Source of the DNA: Tabrizicola sp.
GTDB taxonomy: Bacteria; Pseudomonadota; Alphaproteobacteria; Rhodobacterales; Rhodobacteraceae
Reading direction: 5' to 3'
DNA length: 32,033 bases
Assembly: GCA_016792685.1 (NCBI GenBank)
Contig: JAEULQ010000075.1
Coordinates: 1-32,033, forward strand
The first letter of the stretch is position 1; each line of letters begins with the position of its first letter. The translations under genes were made by a program, and so were the position numbers. This document shows positions 998 to 20,268 of the stretch, one piece after another. A model generated the notes under the pieces. It made no database searches. It saw only the letters and a program-made list of their open reading frames with translations, and was not told the origin of the DNA.

Positions 998-1801
998 CTA
1001 CCGCCCCTTCCACACCGGGTCCCGCTTCTCCGCAAAAGCCTTCGCGCCCTCCAGCTGATCCTCGCTGGAATAAAGCCGATCAACGGTAGGCATCTGCCGC
1101 TTGGTGATCCGGTTCAGCGCGTCCTGGAAGCGCATGTTCTCGGCCTCGCGCACCACTTCCTTGATCGCCGCATAGACCAACGGAGGGCCACTCTCCAAGA
1201 GGCGCGCCAGCTCCCAGGTCTTGGCCAGAAGCTCCTCGGGCTTGCAGATCTCCTTGATCAGGCCCCAGCGGAAGGCCTCTTCCGCGTCGAACCAGCGACC
1301 GGTCAGCAAGAGGTCCATCGCCACGTGATAGGGGATGCGTTTCGGGAGTTTGATCGAGGCCGCATCGGCCACCGTGCCGGACCGGATTTCAGGCAACGCA
1401 AAGGTCGCATTGGTCGAACACATGATGATGTCGGCCGACAACGCGAATTCGAGCCCCCCGCCGCAGCAGATGCCCTGCACCGCCGCAATCACCGGCTTGT
1501 TGAGGTTCGGAAGCTCCTGCAGCCCGGCAAAGCCACCAACCCCATAGTCGCCATCGACCGCATCGCCCTCGGCCGCAGCCTTCAGATCCCAGCCGGGGCA
1601 GAAGAACTTCTCCCCCGCGGCCCGGATGATGCAGACCCGCAAGCTGTCATCGTCCCGAAAATCCCGGAAGGTCAGCCCCATGACCCGACTTGTCGCAAGG
1701 CTGATCGCATTGGCCTTGGGCACGTCCAGCGTGACCTCAAGAATGGCCCCCTCGCGGCGCGTCTTGATCGGGCCTTCGACCCGCATCTGCATTTCCGGCA
1801 T
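998..1801 (-). CDS. caiD: carnitinyl-CoA dehydratase (crotonobetainyl-CoA hydratase)
   Basis: A crotonase-superfamily enzyme of about 267 residues that interconverts crotonobetainyl-CoA and L-carnitinyl-CoA in the cytoplasm. It resembles E. coli CaiD along its length as I recall that sequence: an early TLDVPKANAI, the block EKFFCPGWDLKAAAEG, the GFAGL segment, and an identical C-terminus FAEKRDPVWKGR. The two crotonase acid residues are retained (about E118 in GGGLEFAL and E138 in ALPEIRSG). The oxyanion-side segment GTVADAASIKLP differs from the IVPDSGG of the enteric protein. It is the last gene of the unit and overlaps the upstream synthetase stop. AGGAGG at 1805-1810 lies directly before a GTG (1804), an ATG (1801) and a further ATG (1792), so the exact start is uncertain. 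Another crotonase activity is possible but less likely in this setting. Confidence 0.88.
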   Translation of the reverse strand: MPEMQMRVEGPIKTRREGAILEVTLDVPKANAISLATSRVMGLTFRDFRDDDSLRVCIIRAAGEKFFCPGWDLKAAAEGDAVDGDYGVGGFAGLQELPNLNKPVIAAVQGICCGGGLEFALSADIIMCSTNATFALPEIRSGTVADAASIKLPKRIPYHVAMDLLLTGRWFDAEEAFRWGLIKEICKPEELLAKTWELARLLESGPPLVYAAIKEVVREAENMRFQDALNRITKRQMPTVDRLYSSEDQLEGAKAFAEKRDPVWKGR

Positions 1802-3789
1802 CACACCCTCCTGATCAGCGCATCCACCGCCACGGCACCGGACTGGCGCACGAGCACGGGGTTGATTTCAATTTCCTCAAGGCTTTCGTCGGCGAGCATC
1901 AAGGCCCCGAGCCGCACTGCGATTTCCGCGACGGCCGCCATGTCGGCCTTGGGCCTGCCCCGGTAGCCGTCCAAAAGCGGCCAAAGGCGAAGGCGCCTTG
2001 CGGCCTCCAGCACCTGAGCCTCCGTCGCGGGCAGGACCAGCGTCACCGTATCGGCCAGAACCTCGGCCGTCACGCCTCCCATCCCAAGCGTCAAGGTCAC
2101 GCCATAGACCGGGTCGCGCCGCAGCCCAAGCAGCACTTCCGCCACGGCCCCGGTCACCATTTCCTCGACCAGATAGCCGGTCGCTCCCGGCATTTCGGCC
2201 TGACCCTCAAGGGTCGACAGCCCCAGCCGCACTGCCCCGGCCTCGGTCTTGTGGGCAAAGCCAAGGCCCTTCAACACATAGGGTGCGCCAAAGCGTACCT
2301 TCCCCGCCACCTCGGCAATCGTCGCCCCGGTCACCGAGCCCGGCACCGGAACCCCTGCCTCGGCCAGCAGCGCCTTGCCTTCGGCCTCCGACAGCAACCG
2401 CACCTCACGTGGTGCCAGCGCCTTGGCAGGCCGCCATCCCGGAACCCCGGCCGGGGTCTGCGCCGCCTTGATCGCGGCGATCGCGGTTTCCAGACCCAGT
2501 AGCGTGCAGATGCCTTGATCCATCATCTCACGCACCCGGCCCTCGCCGAAGTTTTCGACCATCGAGGCGACCGGGAAGGCGATCTTGCCCGTGGCTTTCT
2601 GCGCCGCCACGATCGCGTCAAGTGCAGGCTGATAGCTGGACGGATCGCAGCGATCCGCTCGCGGCGTGTCGATGATGTACATCCCGGCGTCATAGGCCTC
2701 GAGCATGGCCGAGAAGACCTCGGTCGTCTTCGGCCCATTGCCCCAGATGAACGTGTGGTAATCCAACGGGTTGGAGATCGTCGGGATCTCCCCCAGCACC
2801 GCAAAGAGCCGGTCATGCGTGGCTTGCGGGACGGGCGGGAAGTCGATCCCGTAAGGCGCGGCCAGGTCCGCGGCCAACCCTGCCTCACCGCCCGAGCAGG
2901 AGAGCGAACAGATCCGCGTCCCGATCTGCGGCCCGTGGACGTGGAAGATCTTCAAGGTCTCGACCAACTCGCTGGGAGTATTGACCTCCGCCACCCCGAT
3001 CTGCCGCAGGAAGGCGCTGGAGGCAGCCCCCCCACCCGCCAACGACGCGGTGTGGCTGGCCGCAGCGGTCCGCGACAGTTCGGTCTTGCCCGACTTGATC
3101 GCGACCACGCCCTTGCCCATCGCTCGCGCCTTCTCGGCCAGCGCCGCAAAGGCCGGGGCATCGTCGATCCCTTCGATGTAGAGACCCACCGCCGTCACCC
3201 GCGGATCGTCAAGCAGTGCACCGGTCAACTCTGCCAGCCCGACGACCGCGGCATTCCCGAGGCAGGCGACATAGGCCACCGGCAGACCCCGGGCCTGCAT
3301 GCCAAGGTTGATGACAATGTTCGAAGATTGGCTGACCAGCGCCACGCCTTTCTCCACCCGGATCCCGCCATGCTGGTCTGGCCAGAGAAGCGCCCCGTCG
3401 AGGTAGTTGATCACCCCATAGCAGTTCGGCCCGAGGATCGGCATCTCCCCTGCCGCCTCGACCAGCTTCGCCTGCAGTCCGGGCTCCCCTGCCTCGGTCC
3501 AGCCGGAGGCAAAACAGATCGCGCCCCCCGCGCCCATCCGGGCAAGCTCGCCCACCACATCGACTGTGGCCATCCGGTTGACGCCGATGAAGGTCGCATC
3601 CGGGGCCGAAGGTAGGTCCGCCAGCGAGGCATAGGCCTTCAACCCGCCGATTTCGCTCTTGGTCGGATGCACGGGCCAGACCTGGCCCTTGAAGCCCATC
3701 TTCTGGCATTGCTCGATGACGTTCCGGGCCCAGCCGGCCCCCAGAACGGCGATGGTCTTGGGGCGAAGCAGACGGTCGAGGCGGCTCAT
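1801..3789 (-). CDS. ADP-forming-type acyl-CoA synthetase, fused alpha and beta subunits
   Basis: A 662-residue protein of the NDP-forming acyl-CoA synthetase superfamily (acetate-CoA ligase, ADP-forming, and relatives). Order of domains: CoA-binding Rossmann domain (residues about 1-125, with LLRPKTIAVLGA and GPNCYGVINY at 120-129), two succinyl-CoA-ligase-like domains (about 145-430), and a C-terminal ATP-grasp domain (about 445-655, with GAPYVLKGLGFAHKTEAGAV and EEIEINPVLV). The loop ASHTASLAGG carries H246, matching the phosphohistidine position of the family. It would activate an acid to its CoA ester. Its place directly before caiD (1 bp overlap at the preferred start) and after the acyl-CoA dehydrogenase suggests gamma-butyrobetaine, crotonobetaine or carnitine as substrate, replacing CaiC; that is inference. 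GGAGG precedes the ATG by six bases. It heads a second sub-unit behind a 305 bp gap. Confidence 0.85.
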   Translation of the reverse strand: MSRLDRLLRPKTIAVLGAGWARNVIEQCQKMGFKGQVWPVHPTKSEIGGLKAYASLADLPSAPDATFIGVNRMATVDVVGELARMGAGGAICFASGWTEAGEPGLQAKLVEAAGEMPILGPNCYGVINYLDGALLWPDQHGGIRVEKGVALVSQSSNIVINLGMQARGLPVAYVACLGNAAVVGLAELTGALLDDPRVTAVGLYIEGIDDAPAFAALAEKARAMGKGVVAIKSGKTELSRTAAASHTASLAGGGAASSAFLRQIGVAEVNTPSELVETLKIFHVHGPQIGTRICSLSCSGGEAGLAADLAAPYGIDFPPVPQATHDRLFAVLGEIPTISNPLDYHTFIWGNGPKTTEVFSAMLEAYDAGMYIIDTPRADRCDPSSYQPALDAIVAAQKATGKIAFPVASMVENFGEGRVREMMDQGICTLLGLETAIAAIKAAQTPAGVPGWRPAKALAPREVRLLSEAEGKALLAEAGVPVPGSVTGATIAEVAGKVRFGAPYVLKGLGFAHKTEAGAVRLGLSTLEGQAEMPGATGYLVEEMVTGAVAEVLLGLRRDPVYGVTLTLGMGGVTAEVLADTVTLVLPATEAQVLEAARRLRLWPLLDGYRGRPKADMAAVAEIAVRLGALMLADESLEEIEINPVLVRQSGAVAVDALIRRV

Positions 3790-3836
3790 GCCCGGCCTCC
3801 GTGTGCTGCATCAGCCCCGGGGCACAGTCCCCGCGT

Positions 3837-3868
3837 CCATTGGTACTCGGACCAATGGCGCACCAATG
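3837..3868. promoter_or_regulatory. operator-like inverted repeat upstream of the acyl-CoA synthetase gene
   Basis: CCATTGGT (3837-3844), six bases, then ACCAATGG (3851-3858) form a perfect 8 bp inverted repeat, and a third half-site ACCAATG follows at 3862-3868. The group lies 48-79 bp upstream of the synthetase start at 3789, where an operator or activator site would be expected. TGGT-N-ACCA symmetry is seen in sites of several regulators, including GntR types, but the protein is unknown. With the stem-loop at 4062-4084 it accounts for most of the 305 bp gap 3790-4094; no gene is seen in that gap. Confidence 0.5.
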
Positions 3869-4061
3869 AACGCACCCGGGATATCTGGGAACAGAAGAAA
3901 GGCCTAGAGAGTCCACGGGCAACGCCCCGCCCGGACCAGCCGAGCGAGGCGCCTTCTCCCGTTACGGTCATCGGCGTCCCCGCCTGTACCGTACTGCCAG
4001 CATGCAGATTCGCAGTTAACATTTCGTTGCTTCTTCTGTTCTCAAATATCCCACGGGGAGC

Positions 4062-4084
4062 GCGAGGGGTGTGAAACCCCTCGC
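4062..4084 (-). terminator. stem-loop after the acyl-CoA dehydrogenase gene
   Basis: GCGAGGGGT and ACCCCTCGC form a perfect 9 bp stem with a 5-base loop, 10 bases past the dehydrogenase stop codon (4095). Reading the minus strand, the stem is followed by GCTCCCCGTGGGATATTTGAG, the same kind of tail as the dispersed GGGGATATTTGG element at 12740 and 27981. It lacks a run of T, so it may be a Rho-independent terminator of the lineage's own style, or an mRNA 3'-end stabiliser that lowers read-through into the synthetase gene. Confidence 0.55.
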
Positions 4085-4094
4085 CCCTGACGCC

Positions 4095-5258
4095 TCAACC
4101 CCCAACCGCGCGCAGAAGTTCGCGGCTGATGATGTGGCGCTGGATCTCCGAGGTGCCTTCCCAGATCCGCTCCACGCGAGAATCCCGCCAGATGCGTTCC
4201 AGCGGCAGTTCGTCCATCAGCCCCATGCCGCCGTGAATCTGGATCGCCTCATCCGCCACCATCGCCAAGACTTCGGTCGCCTTCAGTTTCGCCATCGACA
4301 TGTCGGCCTCTGTCACCGTGCCCTGATCATATTTCCAGGCCGCCTCGCGGGTCAGAAGCTCGGCCGCTTTCAGCTCCATCGCCATGTCGGCAAGCTTGAA
4401 CGAAATCCCCTGGAACTTGCCGATCTGCTGGCCGAACTGCTTGCGCTCGGCGGAATAGGAAATCGCATGGCCCAGCGCGCGTTCCGCCCGGCCAAGGCAG
4501 GTCGAGGCGACTTGCAGGCGCGTTGCCCCCAGCCAGGAATTCGCCACTTCAAAGCCCTTGTGGACCTCGCCCAGGATCTGGCGTTTGTTGATCCGGCAAT
4601 CGTCGAATTCCAGCACCGCATTGGTGTAGCCCCGGTGGCTGACGTTGCGATAGCCGTCGCGCACCGAAAACCCCGGCGTGCCCTTGTCGACGAAGAAGGC
4701 GGTGATCAGCTTCTTCGGCCCGCGCGGGGTCTGTTCCTCGCCCGTCGCCATGAAGCAGATCGCAAAGCCTGCAAGGTCTGCGTGGGAAATGAAATGCTTG
4801 GTCCCGTTCAGGATCCAGTCATCGCCATCCTGCCGCGCGCTGGCCTTCATACCCCGCAGGTCCGACCCCGCGCCGGGCTCGGTCATCGCCAGGCAATCCC
4901 AGGTTTCACCCCGGATGCAGGGCATCAGGTATTGCTCGCGCTGTTCGGCATTCCCGGCCAGAAGGATGTTCGACGGCCGGGCCACGGTCGTCCAGTGCAG
5001 CGCATAATTCGCGCGGCCCAGTTCCTTTTCATAGAGCAGCCAGGACAGGGTATCGAGGCCGGCACCACCGACCTCGACCGGCATGTTGGCGGCGTAAAGC
5101 CCTGCCGCAATGGCCTTTTTCTGGATCTCCTTGATCAGGTCCAGAGGCAGATGGCCCGTGCGTTCGACCTCCAACTCGTGCGGATAAAGCTCCGCCTCGA
5201 CAAAGGCCCGCGTCGTGTCGACGATCATCTGTTGTTCTTCGTTCAGACCGAAATCCAT
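4095..5258 (-). CDS. acyl-CoA dehydrogenase, probable gamma-butyrobetainyl-CoA dehydrogenase
   Basis: A 387-residue, full-length FAD-dependent acyl-CoA dehydrogenase. Visible signatures are MDFGLNEEQ at the N-terminus, the flavin/substrate block AMTEPGAGSDLRGMKA, the SAERKQFGQQIGKFQGISFKL region, IHGGMGLMDELP, and the C-terminal RIWEGTSEIQR with E367 at the usual catalytic-base position. The enzyme removes hydrogens at C2-C3 of an acyl-CoA and passes electrons to ETF. Between carnitine dehydrogenase and a CaiD-type hydratase, the natural substrate would be gamma-butyrobetainyl-CoA, giving crotonobetainyl-CoA; the reverse, CaiA-like reduction is an alternative. It follows the SDR stop by 7 bp with GAGGG before the ATG, so it is in the same operon. 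Confidence 0.87.
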   Translation of the reverse strand: MDFGLNEEQQMIVDTTRAFVEAELYPHELEVERTGHLPLDLIKEIQKKAIAAGLYAANMPVEVGGAGLDTLSWLLYEKELGRANYALHWTTVARPSNILLAGNAEQREQYLMPCIRGETWDCLAMTEPGAGSDLRGMKASARQDGDDWILNGTKHFISHADLAGFAICFMATGEEQTPRGPKKLITAFFVDKGTPGFSVRDGYRNVSHRGYTNAVLEFDDCRINKRQILGEVHKGFEVANSWLGATRLQVASTCLGRAERALGHAISYSAERKQFGQQIGKFQGISFKLADMAMELKAAELLTREAAWKYDQGTVTEADMSMAKLKATEVLAMVADEAIQIHGGMGLMDELPLERIWRDSRVERIWEGTSEIQRHIISRELLRAVGG

Positions 5259-5265
5259 TGTGCCC

Positions 5266-6018
5266 TCACGGATCGGGATTGATGGTAAAGCCGTCTACGG
5301 TCAGTGCCTGGCCCGAAACCATGCGCGCCCCGTCAGAGGCCAGGAACAGCGCCATGTGCGCCACGTCTTCAGGATCAGAGAGCCGCTTCAGCGCGGTCCC
5401 CGAAGCATAACCCTGCCGAACCGCCTCCGGCGTCATGCCCTTGGCTTCGGCCTCGGCCTCGATCACCCGGTCGATCCGGGGGCCGTTGACCGAGCCCGGG
5501 CAGATCGCATTGGCCCGGATGCCAAACGGCCCCAGCTCCATTGCCACAGTCTTCATCAGCCCGATCACCGCCCATTTCGCCGCCACATAGGGCGCGCGGT
5601 AAGGCACGCCGTAGATCCCTGCGGTCGACGAGGTGAAGATCATCACGCCCCGCCCCGCCGGTTTCATCAACCGCGCGCCGTGCTTGGCCGCCAGCATCGC
5701 GCCATCAAGGTTCACCCCCAGACACTGGTGCCAGCCTTCCAGCGGCATGTCCTCGATCGCCGCTGTCGGCCCCTTGATCCCGGCATTGGCGCAAAGGACG
5801 TCGAGGCCGCCCCAATCCGCCGCGATCTCGGAAAACAGCAGCTCCATCGCAGGCTCGCTGGAGGTATCGCAGACCGTTCCCCGAATGCCCGCAGGCAGGG
5901 CCGCCACGGCAGAGGCATCGACATCCGTCACCCAGACTCGATAGCCCGCATCGGCAAAGGCCTTGGCCATCACCAGGCCAATGCCATTTGCCCCCGCCGT
6001 GATCAGGCAGCGTTTCAC
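5266..6018 (-). CDS. SDR-family oxidoreductase in the carnitine operon
   Basis: A 250-residue classical short-chain dehydrogenase/reductase. It has the cofactor motif TAGANGIG (7-14), an acidic D32/D34 after the second strand suggesting NAD preference, the NAG motif (78-80), the catalytic serine around S130-S131, Y144 and K148 (YVAAK), and PGSVNGPRI after the sixth strand. The start is GTG at 6018, overlapping the preceding stop as GTGA, so translation is probably coupled to the carnitine dehydrogenase. In this context it could be a D-carnitine dehydrogenase, letting D-carnitine enter the pathway, or a 3-hydroxybutyrate dehydrogenase acting on the acetoacetate made by the cleavage enzyme. The sequence alone does not decide between them. 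Confidence 0.85.
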   Translation of the reverse strand: MKRCLITAGANGIGLVMAKAFADAGYRVWVTDVDASAVAALPAGIRGTVCDTSSEPAMELLFSEIAADWGGLDVLCANAGIKGPTAAIEDMPLEGWHQCLGVNLDGAMLAAKHGARLMKPAGRGVMIFTSSTAGIYGVPYRAPYVAAKWAVIGLMKTVAMELGPFGIRANAICPGSVNGPRIDRVIEAEAEAKGMTPEAVRQGYASGTALKRLSDPEDVAHMALFLASDGARMVSGQALTVDGFTINPDP

Positions 6019-7490
6019 TTCTTCTGCCCCACCGCCCGGCCCGCGCCTTCCGGCAGGGGCAGGCCCTCATGCGCCTTGGCGATCGCCTGCAGCTTGGCCC
6101 AGACCTCGGGCGCCGCCGGAACCGACTTGCCCGCGCCCATGTCGACATGCAGGCAAAGCTGTTCGATGGTCGCGACACAGGTCTCGCCCACCATCACGCG
6201 GACAAAGCTGCGGAACCGCTTCTCGTCGGCGCTGATGATCTGCAACTCGCCCCGCACCTGATCGCCAAGCTTGGCCTCACCCAGATGCCGGATATGCGTC
6301 TCGGCCGAGTAGTAGCTGTGCCCAGCCGCCACATAATCCATCCCCGCGCCGATGGTGCGCAGCAAGTTGTCCACCGTCTCGGAGTTCACGAAGTAATAGC
6401 GGCTTTCGGTCATGTGACCGTTGTAGTCGATCCAGCCCGGCAGGACCTGGCCCTGGTACATGACCAGAGGCGCCGCCTTGGCCCCGGTATCCAGGCCCTT
6501 CTGCATCTCGGCATGGAAGACCGCCGCCCGCGCCTCGTCATGTTCGCGCAGGACCTTGCCAGCGCCCCAGTTGCGTTCCTTCAGGCTTCGCAGGAAACCC
6601 ACAAGGTTGCGGTCGCGGATGCGTTCAAGCTCACGGATGCCGTACATGCCGGACTGGGCGTCGGACTGGCTGGAGACAAGCTCGACCAGCTCGTCATTGA
6701 ACTCGGGCACATCCATCAGCTTGGTCCAGGGCCATTTCAGCGCCGGGCCAAACTGGGCCATGAAGTGCTTCATTCCCGCTTCGCCGCCCGCGATGCGGTA
6801 GGTCTCGAACAGACCCATCTGCCCCCAGCGCAGGCCAAAGCCCATGCGGATCGCCTCGTCGATCTCTTCGGTCGTGGCGATGCCGTCCTTCAGCATCCAC
6901 AGCGCCTCGCGCCAGACCGCCTCAAGGAAGCGGTTGCCGATGAAGGCGTCGATCTCGTGGCGGATCACCAGCGGGAACATCCCGATGGCCTTCATGATCT
7001 CGACCGTCTTTTCCACCACGGCGGGCGGGTTCGCCGGCGAACCCGACACTTCCGACAGCGGCAGGAGGTAGACCGGGTTGAACGGATGCGCGACGATGAT
7101 GTTTTCCGGCGCGGGCGAGCCCTTCTGCAGGTCACTCGCCTTGAACCCGCTGGTCGAGGACCCGATCAGCACGCCCGGATTGGCCTGTTGCAACTGGGCA
7201 TAGACCTTGTGCTTCAGCTCGATCCGCTCCGAGACCGACTCCTGCACATATTCCGCGCCCTCGACAGCCTCGCCGATGGTTCCGTGAAACGTAAGCTTGC
7301 CCTCCGGCGGCATCGGCACGTCCGAAAGCGCGGGCAGCGCCAGCCGGGCATTGGCCATGACGGCTGCAATCTTCCGCTCGGCCTCGGGATCAGGGTCGAA
7401 GACACCCACATCCCAGCCATTCAGAAGAAACCGCGCGGCCCAACCGCCACCGATAACCCCGCCCCCGATGATTGCTGCTTTTCTGGTCAT
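6015..7490 (-). CDS. lcdH: L-carnitine dehydrogenase fused to a betainyl-CoA thioesterase
   Basis: A 491-residue two-domain protein. Residues about 1-320 are a 3-hydroxyacyl-CoA-dehydrogenase-like enzyme: NAD motif IGGGVIGGGWAARF (7-21), SSTSGF (111-116), the HPFNP motif with catalytic-type H135, and NRFLEAVWREAL (186-197). This part oxidises L-carnitine to 3-dehydrocarnitine. Residues about 343-475 are a hot-dog thioesterase with DYNGHMTESRYY (355-366), equivalent to the DxNxH active-site region of 4HBT enzymes. From family knowledge, such fusions occur in alphaproteobacterial carnitine pathways, whereas Pseudomonas has separate CdhA and CdhB. The thioesterase would release glycine betaine from betainyl-CoA, and perhaps carnitine from carnitinyl-CoA. 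GAGGA precedes the ATG by seven bases. It lies 3 bp after a lipoprotein gene. Confidence 0.92.
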   Translation of the reverse strand: MTRKAAIIGGGVIGGGWAARFLLNGWDVGVFDPDPEAERKIAAVMANARLALPALSDVPMPPEGKLTFHGTIGEAVEGAEYVQESVSERIELKHKVYAQLQQANPGVLIGSSTSGFKASDLQKGSPAPENIIVAHPFNPVYLLPLSEVSGSPANPPAVVEKTVEIMKAIGMFPLVIRHEIDAFIGNRFLEAVWREALWMLKDGIATTEEIDEAIRMGFGLRWGQMGLFETYRIAGGEAGMKHFMAQFGPALKWPWTKLMDVPEFNDELVELVSSQSDAQSGMYGIRELERIRDRNLVGFLRSLKERNWGAGKVLREHDEARAAVFHAEMQKGLDTGAKAAPLVMYQGQVLPGWIDYNGHMTESRYYFVNSETVDNLLRTIGAGMDYVAAGHSYYSAETHIRHLGEAKLGDQVRGELQIISADEKRFRSFVRVMVGETCVATIEQLCLHVDMGAGKSVPAAPEVWAKLQAIAKAHEGLPLPEGAGRAVGQKK

Positions 7491-7493
7491 TCT

Positions 7494-7871
7494 TCATTCC
7501 TCAGTGTGTCGGCTGCCGGTCGCGTAAAAATCTAAGTTGTCATCGTCACTCGGCACTGCCTCGATATAACCGGCGGCGCAGGTATTGGTTGTAGGCAAGC
7601 AAACGGTCTCACATTGCGAAGAGTCGCTGCATGCCTTTCCTCCGTCAGAGGTGCGCTTGTCGCAGATCGGCAATCCGCGCTTTAGTGCTAGCAGCCCGCT
7701 TTGGAACTCCACGACTGGTTCCCGGCCAGATGCGCGGCAGGCCGCGACGGCTCGCTCCACATCAAGCTCCGTAGGAATTTCGACATCAGGCGCGGACTCT
7801 CTCTCCTGCTCGGTACAAGCCACGCACAACAGCGTGCCAAGCAAAACCACCGACGCCTTGCTGGCACGCAT
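7494..7871 (-). CDS. small cysteine-rich lipoprotein inside the carnitine operon
   Basis: The start at 7871 is chosen for its GGGGAG Shine-Dalgarno four bases upstream and because it gives a lipoprotein signal (MRASKASVVLLGTLLCVAC) with lipobox LCVAC; the mature 105 residues would be lipidated and sorted to the inner or outer membrane. The mature part has a Cys-rich stretch (GGKACSDSSQCETVC, then NTCAAGY) that could form disulfides, preceded by a region with PICDKR. No named family is recognised. GC content and codon choice look less biased than in the flanking enzymes, suggesting later insertion. It lies 3 bp before the carnitine dehydrogenase gene and 55 bp after another lipoprotein gene, so it is transcribed with the pathway. 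Confidence 0.72.
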   Translation of the reverse strand: MRASKASVVLLGTLLCVACTEQERESAPDVEIPTELDVERAVAACRASGREPVVEFQSGLLALKRGLPICDKRTSDGGKACSDSSQCETVCLPTTNTCAAGYIEAVPSDDDNLDFYATGSRHTEE

Positions 7872-7926
7872 GACGCTCCCCATTATTGTCGCCCTGCGTC
7901 TCATTCTTCTTATGCTGCCCCAGATT

Positions 7927-8238
7927 TCAATCCAGGCCCCCCGCCCGGCTACCCTCTCTGTATTTACAGGCAAAGCGGCGATCCACGACCGACACCGCAC
8001 CCACCTTTCCCCCATCCCGCTCGCAGCGCTGGATCTCCCCTGGCGTCTCCTCAATCACCCGGGCCAGACAGATCTCCCGCCCCGACGGACCGCTCAGCGG
8101 GGCCGGGCTGGTGCAGTCGATCTCGCCCAGCGGGACCCCGGCCGGGGTGTACCAGGCCCCGTCCTCGACACAGGCCGCAAGCATCAGCAGGCAGGCCGCC
8201 GCCGATCCAAGCCTAACCTGCATCGCACGGCGAGGCAT
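7927..8238 (-). CDS. small lipoprotein downstream of the cleavage enzyme
   Basis: A 103-residue protein with a lipoprotein signal (MQVRLGSAAACLLMLAAC, lipobox LAAC) and an 80-residue mature part containing EIDCTSP, REICLARV, IQRCERDGGK and RRFACKYR, so four cysteines that may pair in the periplasm. The ATG at 8238 is used here because it lies 4 bp past the upstream stop, allowing translational coupling; the ATG at 8223 (start of MQVRLG) is equally possible. The C-ERDGG-x-C spacing loosely echoes the cysteine-rich part of the next lipoprotein, and the two may be related or functional partners. Function unknown. A surface or periplasmic role in handling quaternary amines is only a guess from position. 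Confidence 0.65.
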   Translation of the reverse strand: MPRRAMQVRLGSAAACLLMLAACVEDGAWYTPAGVPLGEIDCTSPAPLSGPSGREICLARVIEETPGEIQRCERDGGKVGAVSVVDRRFACKYREGSRAGGLD

Positions 8239-8242
8239 GAGG

Positions 8243-9157
8243 CTAGCGGCCGACCGGTGCGCGTTTCTCCAGCTTCAGCCGCGCCCGCACTTCCGCCGGG
8301 GTGATGACCCGCGCGCCCATGTTCTCGATAATCGTCGCTGCCCGCTCCACCAGCTGAGCGTTGGTCGCGAGCACGCCCTTGTCGAGCCAGAGGTTGTCCT
8401 CAAGCCCCACCCGGACGTTCCCGCCCGCCAGCGTGGCCGCCGCGACATAGGCCATCTCGTTCCGGCCCAGACCGAAGGCGCTGAAATGCCAGCCCGCGGG
8501 GACGTTGTTCACCATCGCCATGAAGGTGTTGAGGTCATCCGGCGCCCCCCACGGAACGCCCATGCAGAGCTGCACCAGCACCGGCTCGGGGATCACGCCT
8601 TCCTTCACCAGCTCTTTCGCCAGCCACAGATGACCGGTGTCAAAGGCCTCGATCTCGATCCGCACGCCCGCCGCCGTCATCCGCTTGGCCATATCGCGGA
8701 GCATCCCCGGCGTGTTGACCATCACATAATCGGCCTCGTTGAAGTTCATCGTGCCGCAATCCAGCGTGCAGATCTCCGGCCGGCATTCGACGATATGGGC
8801 GACACGCTCTTCCGCGCCGCACATGTCCGACTTGGCGGCCATCGTCGTCATCGTCTCGGTGTCGTCGAAATACATGTCCCCGCCCATGCCGGCGGTCAGG
8901 TTCAGGACGACATCCGTGTCGCTGTCGCGGATCCGGTCAGTGACCTCGCGGTAGTATTCCAGCTTGCGGCTGGGCTTCCCGGTCTCGGGGTCACGCACAT
9001 GGCAATGCACCACTGCCGCCCCCGCCTTGGCCGCCGCAATCGCGGCATCGGCAATCTGCTTCGGCGAGCGTGGCACATGGGGCGAGCGGTCCTGCGTGCC
9101 GCCGGAACCGGTCACCGCGCAGGTGATGAAGACTTCCTTGTTCATGTTCAGCGGCAT
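8243..9157 (-). CDS. cdhC: 3-dehydrocarnitine cleavage enzyme (BKACE family)
   Basis: A 304-residue beta-keto acid cleavage enzyme (formerly DUF849). It shows the N-terminal KEVFITCAVTG, the metal-binding HCHVRD (H51, H53), a TIM-barrel pattern, and the conserved C-terminal GGNVRVGLEDN. Enzymes of this family use Zn2+ and acetyl-CoA to split a beta-keto acid into acetoacetate and an acyl-CoA. In a cluster with L-carnitine dehydrogenase the substrate should be 3-dehydrocarnitine, giving acetoacetate and betainyl-CoA. It is the first gene of the operon, divergent from the AraC-type regulator, with GGAGG eight bases before the ATG. The related 3-keto-5-aminohexanoate cleavage enzyme of lysine fermentation is the main alternative, but the context argues against it. 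Confidence 0.9.
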   Translation of the reverse strand: MPLNMNKEVFITCAVTGSGGTQDRSPHVPRSPKQIADAAIAAAKAGAAVVHCHVRDPETGKPSRKLEYYREVTDRIRDSDTDVVLNLTAGMGGDMYFDDTETMTTMAAKSDMCGAEERVAHIVECRPEICTLDCGTMNFNEADYVMVNTPGMLRDMAKRMTAAGVRIEIEAFDTGHLWLAKELVKEGVIPEPVLVQLCMGVPWGAPDDLNTFMAMVNNVPAGWHFSAFGLGRNEMAYVAAATLAGGNVRVGLEDNLWLDKGVLATNAQLVERAATIIENMGARVITPAEVRARLKLEKRAPVGR

Positions 9158-9230
9158 GTCATTCCCTCCAGAGGCTTTGTCCCACCATAGCCGTCTTGCG
9201 CAGCGCCGCTTTGCACTTTACGAAATCCGC
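9158..9230. promoter_or_regulatory. divergent promoter region of the carnitine operon and its regulator
   Basis: This 73 bp gap separates the ATG of the cleavage-enzyme gene (minus strand) from the ATG of the regulator gene (plus strand), so promoters for both directions and any regulator site must lie here or inside the gene ends. I see no convincing -35/-10 pair; TTGCGC at 9196-9201 is the best -35-like hexamer. The short length fits activator-dependent transcription. Confidence 0.5.
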
Positions 9231-10193
9231 ATGACGGAAAATGCCATTCTTCAGCCCTCGGACCAGCCGCTGACCATTTCGCTTCTGGTCCTGCCCCAGG
9301 CCTCGATCCTCGAGGTCGCCTCGGCGCTTGACCCTTTGCGCAATGCCAACCGTCAGCTCGGGCATGAGGCCTATCGCTGGCGCGTCGTCTCGCCCGATGG
9401 CGCGCCCGTCCCCCTGACCTGCGGCATCGAGCTGCCCTCCTCCGGGCCCCTTTCCCATGCGGTCGGTGCGGATGCCCTGATCGTGGTGGCGGGTTACCGG
9501 CTGGCCGAAGTCGCGACCCGCCCCCTGATCCGCGAGCTTCGCCGCATCGCCTCGCGCTTCCAACTGGTCGGCGGCATCGATGCCGGCCCCTGGGTCCTGG
9601 CACGCGCGGGCCTTCTGGACGGCCACCGCGCGACCGTGCATTGGGAGGATCTCGAAGACCTCGCCGCCGCGCATCCGCACATCGATGTAATCCCGGACCG
9701 CTTCGTGATCGACCGCAACCGCGTGACGATCTCGGGCGCCGCCCCCGCTGCCGACTTCATGCTGCATCTGATCCGCGCCCGCCACGGCGCGGCGCTGGCC
9801 CGTCAGGTCGCGATGAGCTTTCTGACCCAAGCTCGCCCCGGCCACGAACCCCAGACCGCCCCGCTTGAACCCGACCCAGCGCTTGACCCTCGCGTTGCGG
9901 CCGCGCTTGCCCGAATGGAAGCCCGAATCGACAGCCCGGAGACCGCCGCCGACACTGCCGTGGCTGTGGGCCTCTCCTGCCGCCGCCTCGAAACCCTGTT
10001 CCGCGAGGCCTTCGGCACCACCCCCGGCGCCCATGCGCTGGACCTGCGCCTGCAGGCGGCGCGACGGATGCTGACCGACACGCGCCACCCGCTAGCCGAA
10101 GTTGCCCTCAGGACCGGCTTTTCCAGCCCGTCCACGCTCTCCCGCGCCTTCAGGGCCAGGTTCGGCCATCCGCCCGGGGCACTGCGCGCCTGA
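9231..10193 (+). CDS. cdhR: GlxA/CdhR-type AraC-family transcriptional regulator
   Basis: A 320-residue regulator. Residues about 13-180 form a DJ-1/PfpI (class I glutamine amidotransferase-like) sensor domain (ISLLVLPQASILEVASALDPL, ALIVVAGY, GGIDAGPWVLARAGLLDGHRATVHWE), and residues about 225-318 a double AraC helix-turn-helix (VAVGLSCRRLETLFREAFG, LAEVALRTGFSSPSTLSRAF). The start at 9231 is taken because translation of the open frame upstream would lie inside the divergent gene. CdhR of Pseudomonas, the activator of carnitine dehydrogenase genes, has this architecture, as do GbdR and ArgR, so it probably senses carnitine or a derivative and activates the divergent operon. It ends four bases before the convergent mgtC-like gene. 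Ligand identity is inferred from context. Confidence 0.87.
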   Translation: MTENAILQPSDQPLTISLLVLPQASILEVASALDPLRNANRQLGHEAYRWRVVSPDGAPVPLTCGIELPSSGPLSHAVGADALIVVAGYRLAEVATRPLIRELRRIASRFQLVGGIDAGPWVLARAGLLDGHRATVHWEDLEDLAAAHPHIDVIPDRFVIDRNRVTISGAAPAADFMLHLIRARHGAALARQVAMSFLTQARPGHEPQTAPLEPDPALDPRVAAALARMEARIDSPETAADTAVAVGLSCRRLETLFREAFGTTPGAHALDLRLQAARRMLTDTRHPLAEVALRTGFSSPSTLSRAFRARFGHPPGALRA

Positions 10194-18683: not shown

Positions 18684-18822
18684 CCAGGGATGATGGCCTG
18701 CGGGTTGCCCTGCACGGCACCCCGCGGCCTTCGATCAACCGCGCCTTGGGGCCCGCAGATCCGTGGCGGGCCGCGCGCGCCCGTCCTGCGCCGTGGACAT
18801 CTGCACCGATCTTTCCGGAAAG

Positions 18823-18850
18823 AACCGGCTTCGCGCCGGTTTTCTCTTTC
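18823..18850 (+). terminator. Rho-independent terminator
   Basis: AACCGGC (18823-18829), loop TTCGC, GCCGGTT (18835-18841), followed by TTCTCTTTC. This is the clearest intrinsic terminator in the window. It lies 140 bp past the outer-membrane protein gene and 48 bp before the amidase start, so it insulates the two. Confidence 0.8.
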
Positions 18851-18897
18851 CTGAGGCGCCCATCCGGGTCACCTTGTCCCAACCACAAGGAACAACC

Positions 18898-20268
18898 ATG
18901 GACCCTGCGACCCTCACCGCCTCGGCGCTTGGCCCGCTCATCCGCAGCCGCCAACTTTCCGCCGAAGAGGCGACCCGCGCCACGCTCGCCCGGATCGACC
19001 GGCTGAACCCCGACCTCAACGCCATCGTCCAGCGGATGGACGATCAGGCGCTTGCCGACGCCCGCGCCATCGACGCGCGGATGGCGCAAGGCGAATATCC
19101 CGGCCCGCTGGCGGGGGTGCCCGTCACGGTCAAGGTCAACATCGACCAGGCCGGTTTCGCCACGACGAACGGCCTGCGCATCCAGGCGAACCTCATCGCG
19201 GCCGAGGACAGCCCTCCCGTCACCAACCTTCGCCGCGCCGGGGCGATCATCGTCGGGCGCACCAACACGCCGGCCTTCAGCTTGCGCTGGTTCACCCGCA
19301 ATTCCCTGCACGGCGCCACGCAGAACCCTGCCTTCCCCGGCCTCACGCCTTGAGGCTCATCCGGTGGCGCGGCGTCAGCCGTCGCTGCGGGTCTCGGCCC
19401 GATCGGACATGGCACCGACATTGCCGGTTCCATCCGCTACCCGGCCTATGCCTGCGGCATCCATGGCCTGCGCCCCGGCCTCGGCCGCGTCCCGGCCTTC
19501 AACCCGACCGCGGGCGACCGGCTGATCGGCGGGCAACTGATGGCCGTTTCCGGGCCCCTTGCCCGGTCTGCCGCCGACCTGCGGCTTGGCCTCGCCGCCC
19601 TCTCCAGACCCGACCCGCGCGACCCCTTGTGGACGCAAGCCACGCCCGCGCCCTACGCCAAACGCGCGGCCCTCGCTCTCACTCCAGATGGCCTCGCAAC
19701 CGATCCCGCGATCCAGGACGCCCTCACCGCCGCCGCCAGAACCCTGGAAGCCCACGGCTGGGAGATCGGCACCCCGACCCTCCCGCCACTCCGCGAGGCG
19801 ATGGAGCTGCAACTTACCCTCTGGCTTGCCGAATTCGCCCTGGGCGGCACCGAGGCCCTCGCCCGCGAAGCCGACCCGGACGCGACCTTCGTCCACCGCG
19901 AGCTTTCGAAGCTCGCCCCGCTGCCCACGCTGGAAAGCTTCATGCGGGCGCTGCAGTCCCGCGCCCGCCTCGCCCGGCTCTGGCGCGGCTTCTTTGCCGA
20001 TTGGCCGGTCCTTCTGACCCCGGTCTCGGGCCAGCTTCCCTTCCCCGACCACTACGACACCAGATCTTCAGAAGCCTTTGCCGAGGTGATCGAGGCCCAG
20101 ATGCCCCAGATCGCCCCCCCGTTCATGGGCCTTCCCGGCCTGACCGTCACCACCGGCAGGACTGCCAAGCACCCGCTCGGCATCCAGGCCCTGGCTGACC
20201 GGGGATGCGAACACATCCTTCTCGACCTCGCCGACCTCCTCGCCCCGGACATCCCGGCGGTCTCGTAG
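18898..20268 (+). pseudogene. amidase (amidase signature family) interrupted by one in-frame TGA
   Basis: Read through the TGA at 19351-19353, the frame is continuous for 456 codons and gives a full amidase. The first part (151 residues) has the catalytic lysine block LAGVPVTVKVNIDQAGF and LHGATQNPAFPGLTP; then comes TGA; then GSSGGAASAVAAGLGPIGHGTDIAGSIRYPAYACGIHGLRP. The stop stands where the first glycine of the GGSSGG signature is expected (one base, GGA to TGA), just before the cis-serine. The nucleophile in TDIAGSIR and the whole C-terminus (…ADLLAPDIPAVS) are intact. As written, the protein would end before two of the three catalytic residues and be inactive. AAGGA lies before the ATG. 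Lack of other damage implies a very recent mutation or a sequencing error. Confidence 0.88.

Follow-up and report, generated by a model that had tools for sequence, protein, structure and literature searches.

The gene cluster in the stretch of Tabrizicola sp. DNA analysed here (32,033 nucleotides, contig JAEULQ010000075.1; referred to as the window) was assigned, with a probability of roughly 0.85 and from sequence comparison, to a Rhodobacteraceae version of the bco/carnitine route, by which gamma-butyrobetaine would be converted into glycine betaine. An earlier note on this DNA had proposed that a fused acyl-CoA synthetase, an acyl-CoA dehydrogenase and a CaiD-type enzyme take gamma-butyrobetaine or crotonobetaine to carnitinyl-CoA. 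This metabolic reading is very probably right, being well supported by context and homology (the S. meliloti gene set, BcoAB and the kept linkage), and is already known in kind. The further claim that a ligase of this type acting on a betaine was undescribed was not upheld, because the entry route has already been described in outline, and gene position links it to the NDP-forming ligase type: BcoAB of S. meliloti is already named gamma-butyrobetaine:CoA ligase in the available part of PMC8364193, and a synthetase 51%/48% identical to that of the window occupies the corresponding slot. The novelty had been argued from a comparison with enteric CaiB and CaiC, in which the aerobic rhizobial bco route was missed. 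The result would extend to many Rhodobacteraceae a route already known, with a betaine:CoA ligase of the ADP-forming type, and would help in naming genes that are now listed as "acetate--CoA ligase family protein".

Open reading frames and Pfam matches agreed in placing the three genes of the note on the minus strand, clustered with the genes for carnitine dehydrogenase and BKACE (Table 1). The carnitine dehydrogenase-thioesterase and BKACE genes lie upstream of the dehydrogenase, synthetase and hydratase genes and are co-oriented with them. Since the open frame of the GlxA-type regulator overlaps BKACE, its true start lies further in. The intergenic gap between dehydrogenase and synthetase comprises 305 bases (3790-4094) and contains a conserved structured element; neither this gap nor the SDR gene figures in the note. 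The SDR gene also adjoins lcdH in some other genomes; its assignment as a D-carnitine dehydrogenase would be a guess. Between carnitine dehydrogenase and BKACE (7494-8242, minus strand) the window has a small lipoprotein-like, cysteine-bearing frame with no Pfam match; the length of this gap differs widely among relatives, and in one of them (L010) it holds a Tsi3-type immunity domain.

Table 1. Positions (window numbering) and strands of the cluster genes and of the intergenic element.
Feature	Position	Strand	Basis or remark
CaiD-type crotonobetainyl-CoA hydratase, bcoC-like (putative)	998..1804	(-)	ECH_1 Pfam domain; 52% identity to E. coli CaiD
Fused NDP-forming acyl-CoA synthetase, putative BcoAB-like gamma-butyrobetaine:CoA ligase, H246	1801..3789	(-)	CoA_binding_2, Succ_CoA_lig and ATP-grasp_5 in a single chain (Pfam)
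Conserved structured RNA-like element	3875..4055	(-)	outer arms ~3878-3899 and ~4031-4052; core 3966-3990
Acyl-CoA dehydrogenase, putative gamma-butyrobetainyl-CoA dehydrogenase, bcoD-like	4095..5258	(-)	three acyl-CoA dehydrogenase Pfam domains, complete
SDR family oxidoreductase	5266..6018	(-)	between carnitine dehydrogenase and acyl-CoA dehydrogenase genes
L-carnitine 3-dehydrogenase fused to 4HBT thioesterase domain	6015..7490	(-)	3HCDH_N, 3HCDH, 4HBT_2; NF005716 735.5 bits, cut-off 592
BKACE (3-dehydrocarnitine cleavage)	8243..9157	(-)	PF05853
GlxA-type regulator (DJ-1/PfpI and AraC HTH), divergent	8964..10193	(+)	open frame

The following reactions are proposed. The synthetase would join CoA to gamma-butyrobetaine, and probably to crotonobetaine as well, with ATP and by way of phosphohistidine 246 and an acyl phosphate. 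The acyl-CoA dehydrogenase would form crotonobetainyl-CoA, which the CaiD-type hydratase would convert into carnitinyl-CoA. From the latter, L-carnitine would be freed by a thioesterase, probably the domain fused to the carnitine dehydrogenase, and would be turned into 3-dehydrocarnitine by the carnitine dehydrogenase domain. BKACE would split 3-dehydrocarnitine to betainyl-CoA, and the thioesterase would release glycine betaine. Established in support of this scheme are the identity and order of the genes, the conserved catalytic residues and the gene set of S. meliloti. The substrate of the window's own synthetase copy, the double role of the thioesterase and the direction of flow we infer, and the fold and the histidine suggest ADP, not AMP, as the product.

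The closest described system is that of S. meliloti. The five genes were found in identical order in S. meliloti Ak57, Sinorhizobium sp. K101 (unannotated) and Rhizobium sp. Kim5, where they are annotated as BKACE, carnitine 3-dehydrogenase, acyl-CoA dehydrogenase, acetate--CoA ligase family protein and carnitinyl-CoA dehydratase; in Thioclava the set is present in a different order. Five enzymes that carry out the seven steps from gamma-butyrobetaine to glycine betaine were reportedly described by Bazire et al. in 2019 (J Bacteriol). In the excerpts of PMC8364193, S. meliloti BcoAB, obtained as a plasmid given by A. Perret (a co-author of Bazire et al.), is called gamma-butyrobetaine:CoA ligase and served, together with ATP and CoA, for the preparation of gamma-butyrobetainyl-CoA. 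Carnitine oxidation and the conversion of betainyl-CoA into glycine betaine are attributed to SM2011_c01638 in the available text of PMC12482172. PMC12542648 gives SMc01639 as an acyl-CoA dehydrogenase, and PMC3596328 assigns SMc01642/3/4 to proline-betaine transport; both assignments fit the gene order at the Ak57 locus (L144). A route via CoA ester, dehydrogenation and hydration is also described for strain HK4 in the accessible portion of PMC3546705.

Locus L144, which was found by a DNA search with the K101 sequence, reads ABC transporter, SDR, GlxA regulator, BKACE, carnitine 3-dehydrogenase, acyl-CoA dehydrogenase, an unlisted stretch, caiD, ABC transporter. By tblastn the unlisted stretch contains the fused synthetase in two frames, with 51% identity over 437 residues and 48% over 207 residues to that of the window; identity and slot together identify the window's synthetase as the orthologue of the S. 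meliloti carnitine-cluster synthetase. In K101 the synthetase is a single open frame with 96% and 91% identity to the two L144 pieces. No protein is listed for the two-frame stretch (10192-12239 of L144), though its neighbours are listed, and the 3.7-Mb record is labelled pSymB. By gene position in L144, L083 and L082, BcoAB is taken to be a fused NDP-forming enzyme.

The S. meliloti cluster resembles that of the window in the five-gene order, the divergent GlxA-type regulator (GlxA-family regulators also adjoin the cluster in Kim5) and the fused synthetase in the ligase slot. It differs in its flanking ABC transporters, in its SDR, which has another location and is 28% identical to that of the window, and in the lack of a long element between dehydrogenase and synthetase, the gap of the nearest kin (L083) being 89 bases. 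The corresponding gaps of L082, L083 and L084 (10, 89 and 3 bases) are too short to hold the element. The enteric cai pathway (E. coli caiTABCDE) uses the same CoA esters, and its CaiD is the relative of the hydratase given in Table 1 (52%), but activation proceeds via CaiC and CaiB, neither of which was found in the window's genome. When this genome (88.9% complete) was searched with the E. coli proteins, the best matches had 29% (CaiC) and 31% (CaiB) identity; no clear orthologue was thus found, and enteric-type activation was rejected. A hydroxylase route was set aside because no TauD-family (PF02668) match was obtained in the same 88.9% complete genome. The bbu cluster of Emergencia timonensis likewise starts from gamma-butyrobetainyl-CoA but is anaerobic, with the CoA-transferases BbuB/C for activation and with elimination of trimethylamine by BbuA (PMC8364193, in the part available).

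A genome scan returned 332 relatives, of which the best 80 (73-91% identity) were retained; these loci are named as members of Rhodobacteraceae or Rhodobacterales or by a higher group only. The complete five-gene set, ordered BKACE, LcdH, dehydrogenase, synthetase, caiD, was present in 61 of these 80 loci at identity thresholds set by us, and the 19 loci with fewer genes are mostly cut by contig ends. Two of the 80 (L062 and L074), not cut by a contig end, keep dehydrogenase, synthetase and caiD but have no lcdH or BKACE within reach. The SDR gene takes the position that it has in the window in 33 of the 80. Of 278 genomes sampled across the class, 57 had a synthetase match at E <=1e-60, many of these being paralogues near 34% identity. 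At the next-best class loci (L115-L130), both dehydrogenase and caiD lie beside the synthetase in 13 of 16, and a carnitine-dehydrogenase-family match lies at most 10 kb away in six of the 16 (places compared by hand). Linkage of the synthetase with carnitine genes recurs in several families besides Rhodobacteraceae.

The synthetase has the CoA-binding, succinyl-CoA-ligase-like and ATP-grasp domains and the phosphorylated-type histidine of the NDP-forming acyl-CoA synthetase superfamily. Its description in the note as a fused enzyme of this kind was borne out by the Pfam domain order and by H246, which lies within the motif SRTAAASHTASLAGG. Both H246 and a second histidine, H513, are H in all 110 aligned rows (the window plus those extracted homologues that reach 600 residues and contain no stop). 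The predicted structure (mean pLDDT 79, below 50 at 234-245 and 247-250, a swinging loop from which H246 is excepted, and at 380-383) gave fold matches to 7cm9, 8wzu and 4xyl. That the synthetase acts on an ordinary short or branched acid, its place among carnitine genes being an accident of operon structure, is improbable. The superfamily is broad, paralogues of about 34% identity are common in the class, and an NCBIfam search of the synthetase gave no match above any cut-off; against this stand the linkage that recurs across families and a 48-row tree with unsettled bootstrap, on which 6 changes account for the label "lcdH within 10 kb" as opposed to 16.4 in shuffles.

Among solved structures, DddX (PDB 7cm9) comes nearest in sequence, profile and fold; this ATP-dependent DMSP lyase ligates CoA to the onium acid DMSP, has 26-27% identity to the synthetase and shares its superfamily and full-length domain order. 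In the excerpts of PMC8163506, His292 of DddX is phosphorylated, Trp391 and Phe435 are thought to hold the sulfonium group, and a change of Glu432 abolishes activity. The counterparts of His292, Trp391 and Phe435, counted by hand on two printed alignments, are H246, W349 and Y386, and these fail to separate DddX from betaine ligases. W349 is no mark of betaine ligases, since all 110 rows, even those of distant paralogues, have W in its column; at position 386 every one of the 77 Rhodobacteraceae-type rows has Y or F, and 22 of the other 32 rows have W. Glu432 aligns with P383 in both alignments, a column with P in 70, D in five and T in two of the 77 Rhodobacteraceae-type rows. A DddX-like lyase, which would turn CoA and DMSP into DMS and acryloyl-CoA, is very unlikely in spite of the best structural match and the aligned sulfonium-holding residues, because the essential glutamate is not kept, the surrounding genes are carnitine genes and the invariant tryptophan is no special sign. 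We infer that the synthetase would be a ligase that binds an onium acid without cleaving it.

The best NCBIfam match of the hydratase was NF002936 (crotonobetainyl-CoA hydratase) with 299.9 bits, under the cut-off of 500; its residues E119 and E139 are kept in 81 of 83 loci, the remaining two having no match. The dehydrogenase scored 184 bits against a cut-off of 540 for the curated NCBIfam crotonobetainyl-CoA enzyme. These two sub-threshold scores, like the loci L062 and L074 and the two-frame synthetase of L144, count against the proposed assignment of the cluster. Its E367 (RIWEGTSEIQ) is E in 75 and D in three of 83 loci, with no match in five. E. coli CaiA, with 32% identity to the dehydrogenase, differs in having G in the E367 column and hence lacks the catalytic Glu.

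The 305-base gap holds a 22-base inverted repeat as the outer arms of an element of about 180 nt, which may be the part of the locus that a specialist would not expect. Gaps of more than 60 bases were compared in the window and in 75 of the best 80 loci; in 65 of these 76 gaps both arms are within 7 mismatches of those of the window. An alignment of 59 rows was prepared, from which L018, L029, L031, L043 and L048 (short, replaced or enlarged interior) and L035 (a near copy) were left out. In L043 (9841-9960), L048 (9829-9948) and L018 (871-937) the outer arms are kept and the interior is different or very short. RNAalifold gave 37 pairs for the 59 rows, 27 of them with two-sided changes in at least one row. 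Of 2183 cells, 97.5% pair, compared with 88.5% after shuffling and 41-51% in a slid control, and none of 500 shuffles reached the value of the element on any of five measures; the shuffles ignore the kinship of the rows, for which the slid control allows. Helix 1 is favoured because the rows were picked by likeness of the outer arms, whereas in helices 2-4, which were not used for the choice, 13 of 18 pairs have two-sided changes. The core has the pattern GCGGUACAGGCN-loop-N'GCCGAUGACCGC, with N and N' covarying, and is enclosed by the long outer helix.

Searches for a known counterpart were negative within their scope. Rfam 15 gave no match to the element at gathering score (the sole match being Scr2736 with 17.1 bits as against 43, E 3) and nothing at E 10 or better in the region of a distant copy; a further Rfam search gave three matches under the gathering score, none of them at a copy. 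A literature search by topic and by sequence strings of the element found nothing that could be connected with it. A small protein encoded in the gap was considered and set aside. A frame with a conserved VQAGTPMT-like stretch runs open through the entire element in 28 of the 59 rows; for frames 0-2, numbered from the start of each row, the figure is nine to 12. This counts against a purely non-coding reading; the element was nonetheless read as probably non-coding, because the codons over the covarying hairpin change regardless of the residue encoded (T to K, I, M or E).

With a 172-position model at E <=0.01, matches were obtained in 38 of 61 genomes, among them 36 of the 37 from Rhodobacteraceae, counts that include reverse-strand echoes and short matches to the outer helix only (one genome, G308, has weak matches only). 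In a sample of the class, 10 of 240 genomes had matches at E 1e-4. The core pattern was found in 109 of 149 Rhodobacteraceae genomes, each representing one genus, and in 10 of 385 genomes of the class, three of the 10 being Rhodobacteraceae; a reversed control pattern gave none among the rows listed. A second copy in the window's genome (L191, 6016-6192, minus strand, 96 bits) lies on another contig, between genes of the ILVD/EDD dehydratase and KDPG-aldolase types. Genomes carry between one and four copies of the core, and the intergenic sites of these differ. Neighbours of copies were picked by hand and not from a systematic sample, and orientation was judged only at neighbours identified by Pfam, since strand calls of flanking genes are unreliable in GC-rich DNA (in the window itself a shadow frame was chosen). 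Under these conditions, same-strand copies were seen 3' of cobB-type, DNA polymerase III, PfkB kinase, FAD-oxidase and LuxR-type genes, and one copy was seen between an FAD-binding gene and glyQ. The element is often located 3' of a gene on the same strand and in some cases separates two genes of one operon. A betaine riboswitch is argued against by the varying neighbours.

The odds are about even that the element represents a class of structured Rhodobacteraceae RNA not described before, which may set the ratio of the flanking messages by processing or stabilisation or may be cut out as a small RNA. The alternative, a palindromic DNA sequence that is dispersed as a miniature mobile or repeat element and has no function as RNA, is doubtful yet has to be taken seriously: the copies are scattered over varied sites, forms of 64-70 nt exist with little beyond the outer helix, and two copies (L236 and L201) are antisense to both neighbours, genes for a GST and an acyl-CoA dehydrogenase. 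It accords poorly with the site being kept in 65 of 76 gaps with compensatory changes, and with a core that is almost invariant between paralogous copies. On the operon sense strand, G-T pairs outnumber A-C pairs by 157 to 29, as expected if this strand, which is therefore the likelier to fold, were the one folded; the model likewise scores 156 bits on the sense strand as against 36 on the opposite one. An intercistronic or 3' RNA element is accordingly considered somewhat more likely than a dispersed DNA repeat. If functional as RNA, the element would be a candidate regulatory or processing class in the 109 of 149 sampled family genomes, and the bco operon would offer a concrete place for a test of its role.

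Elsewhere in the window, an amidase-type frame (18763-20268, plus strand) has a single in-frame stop at 19351-19353 and is either a pseudogene or the result of a sequencing error.
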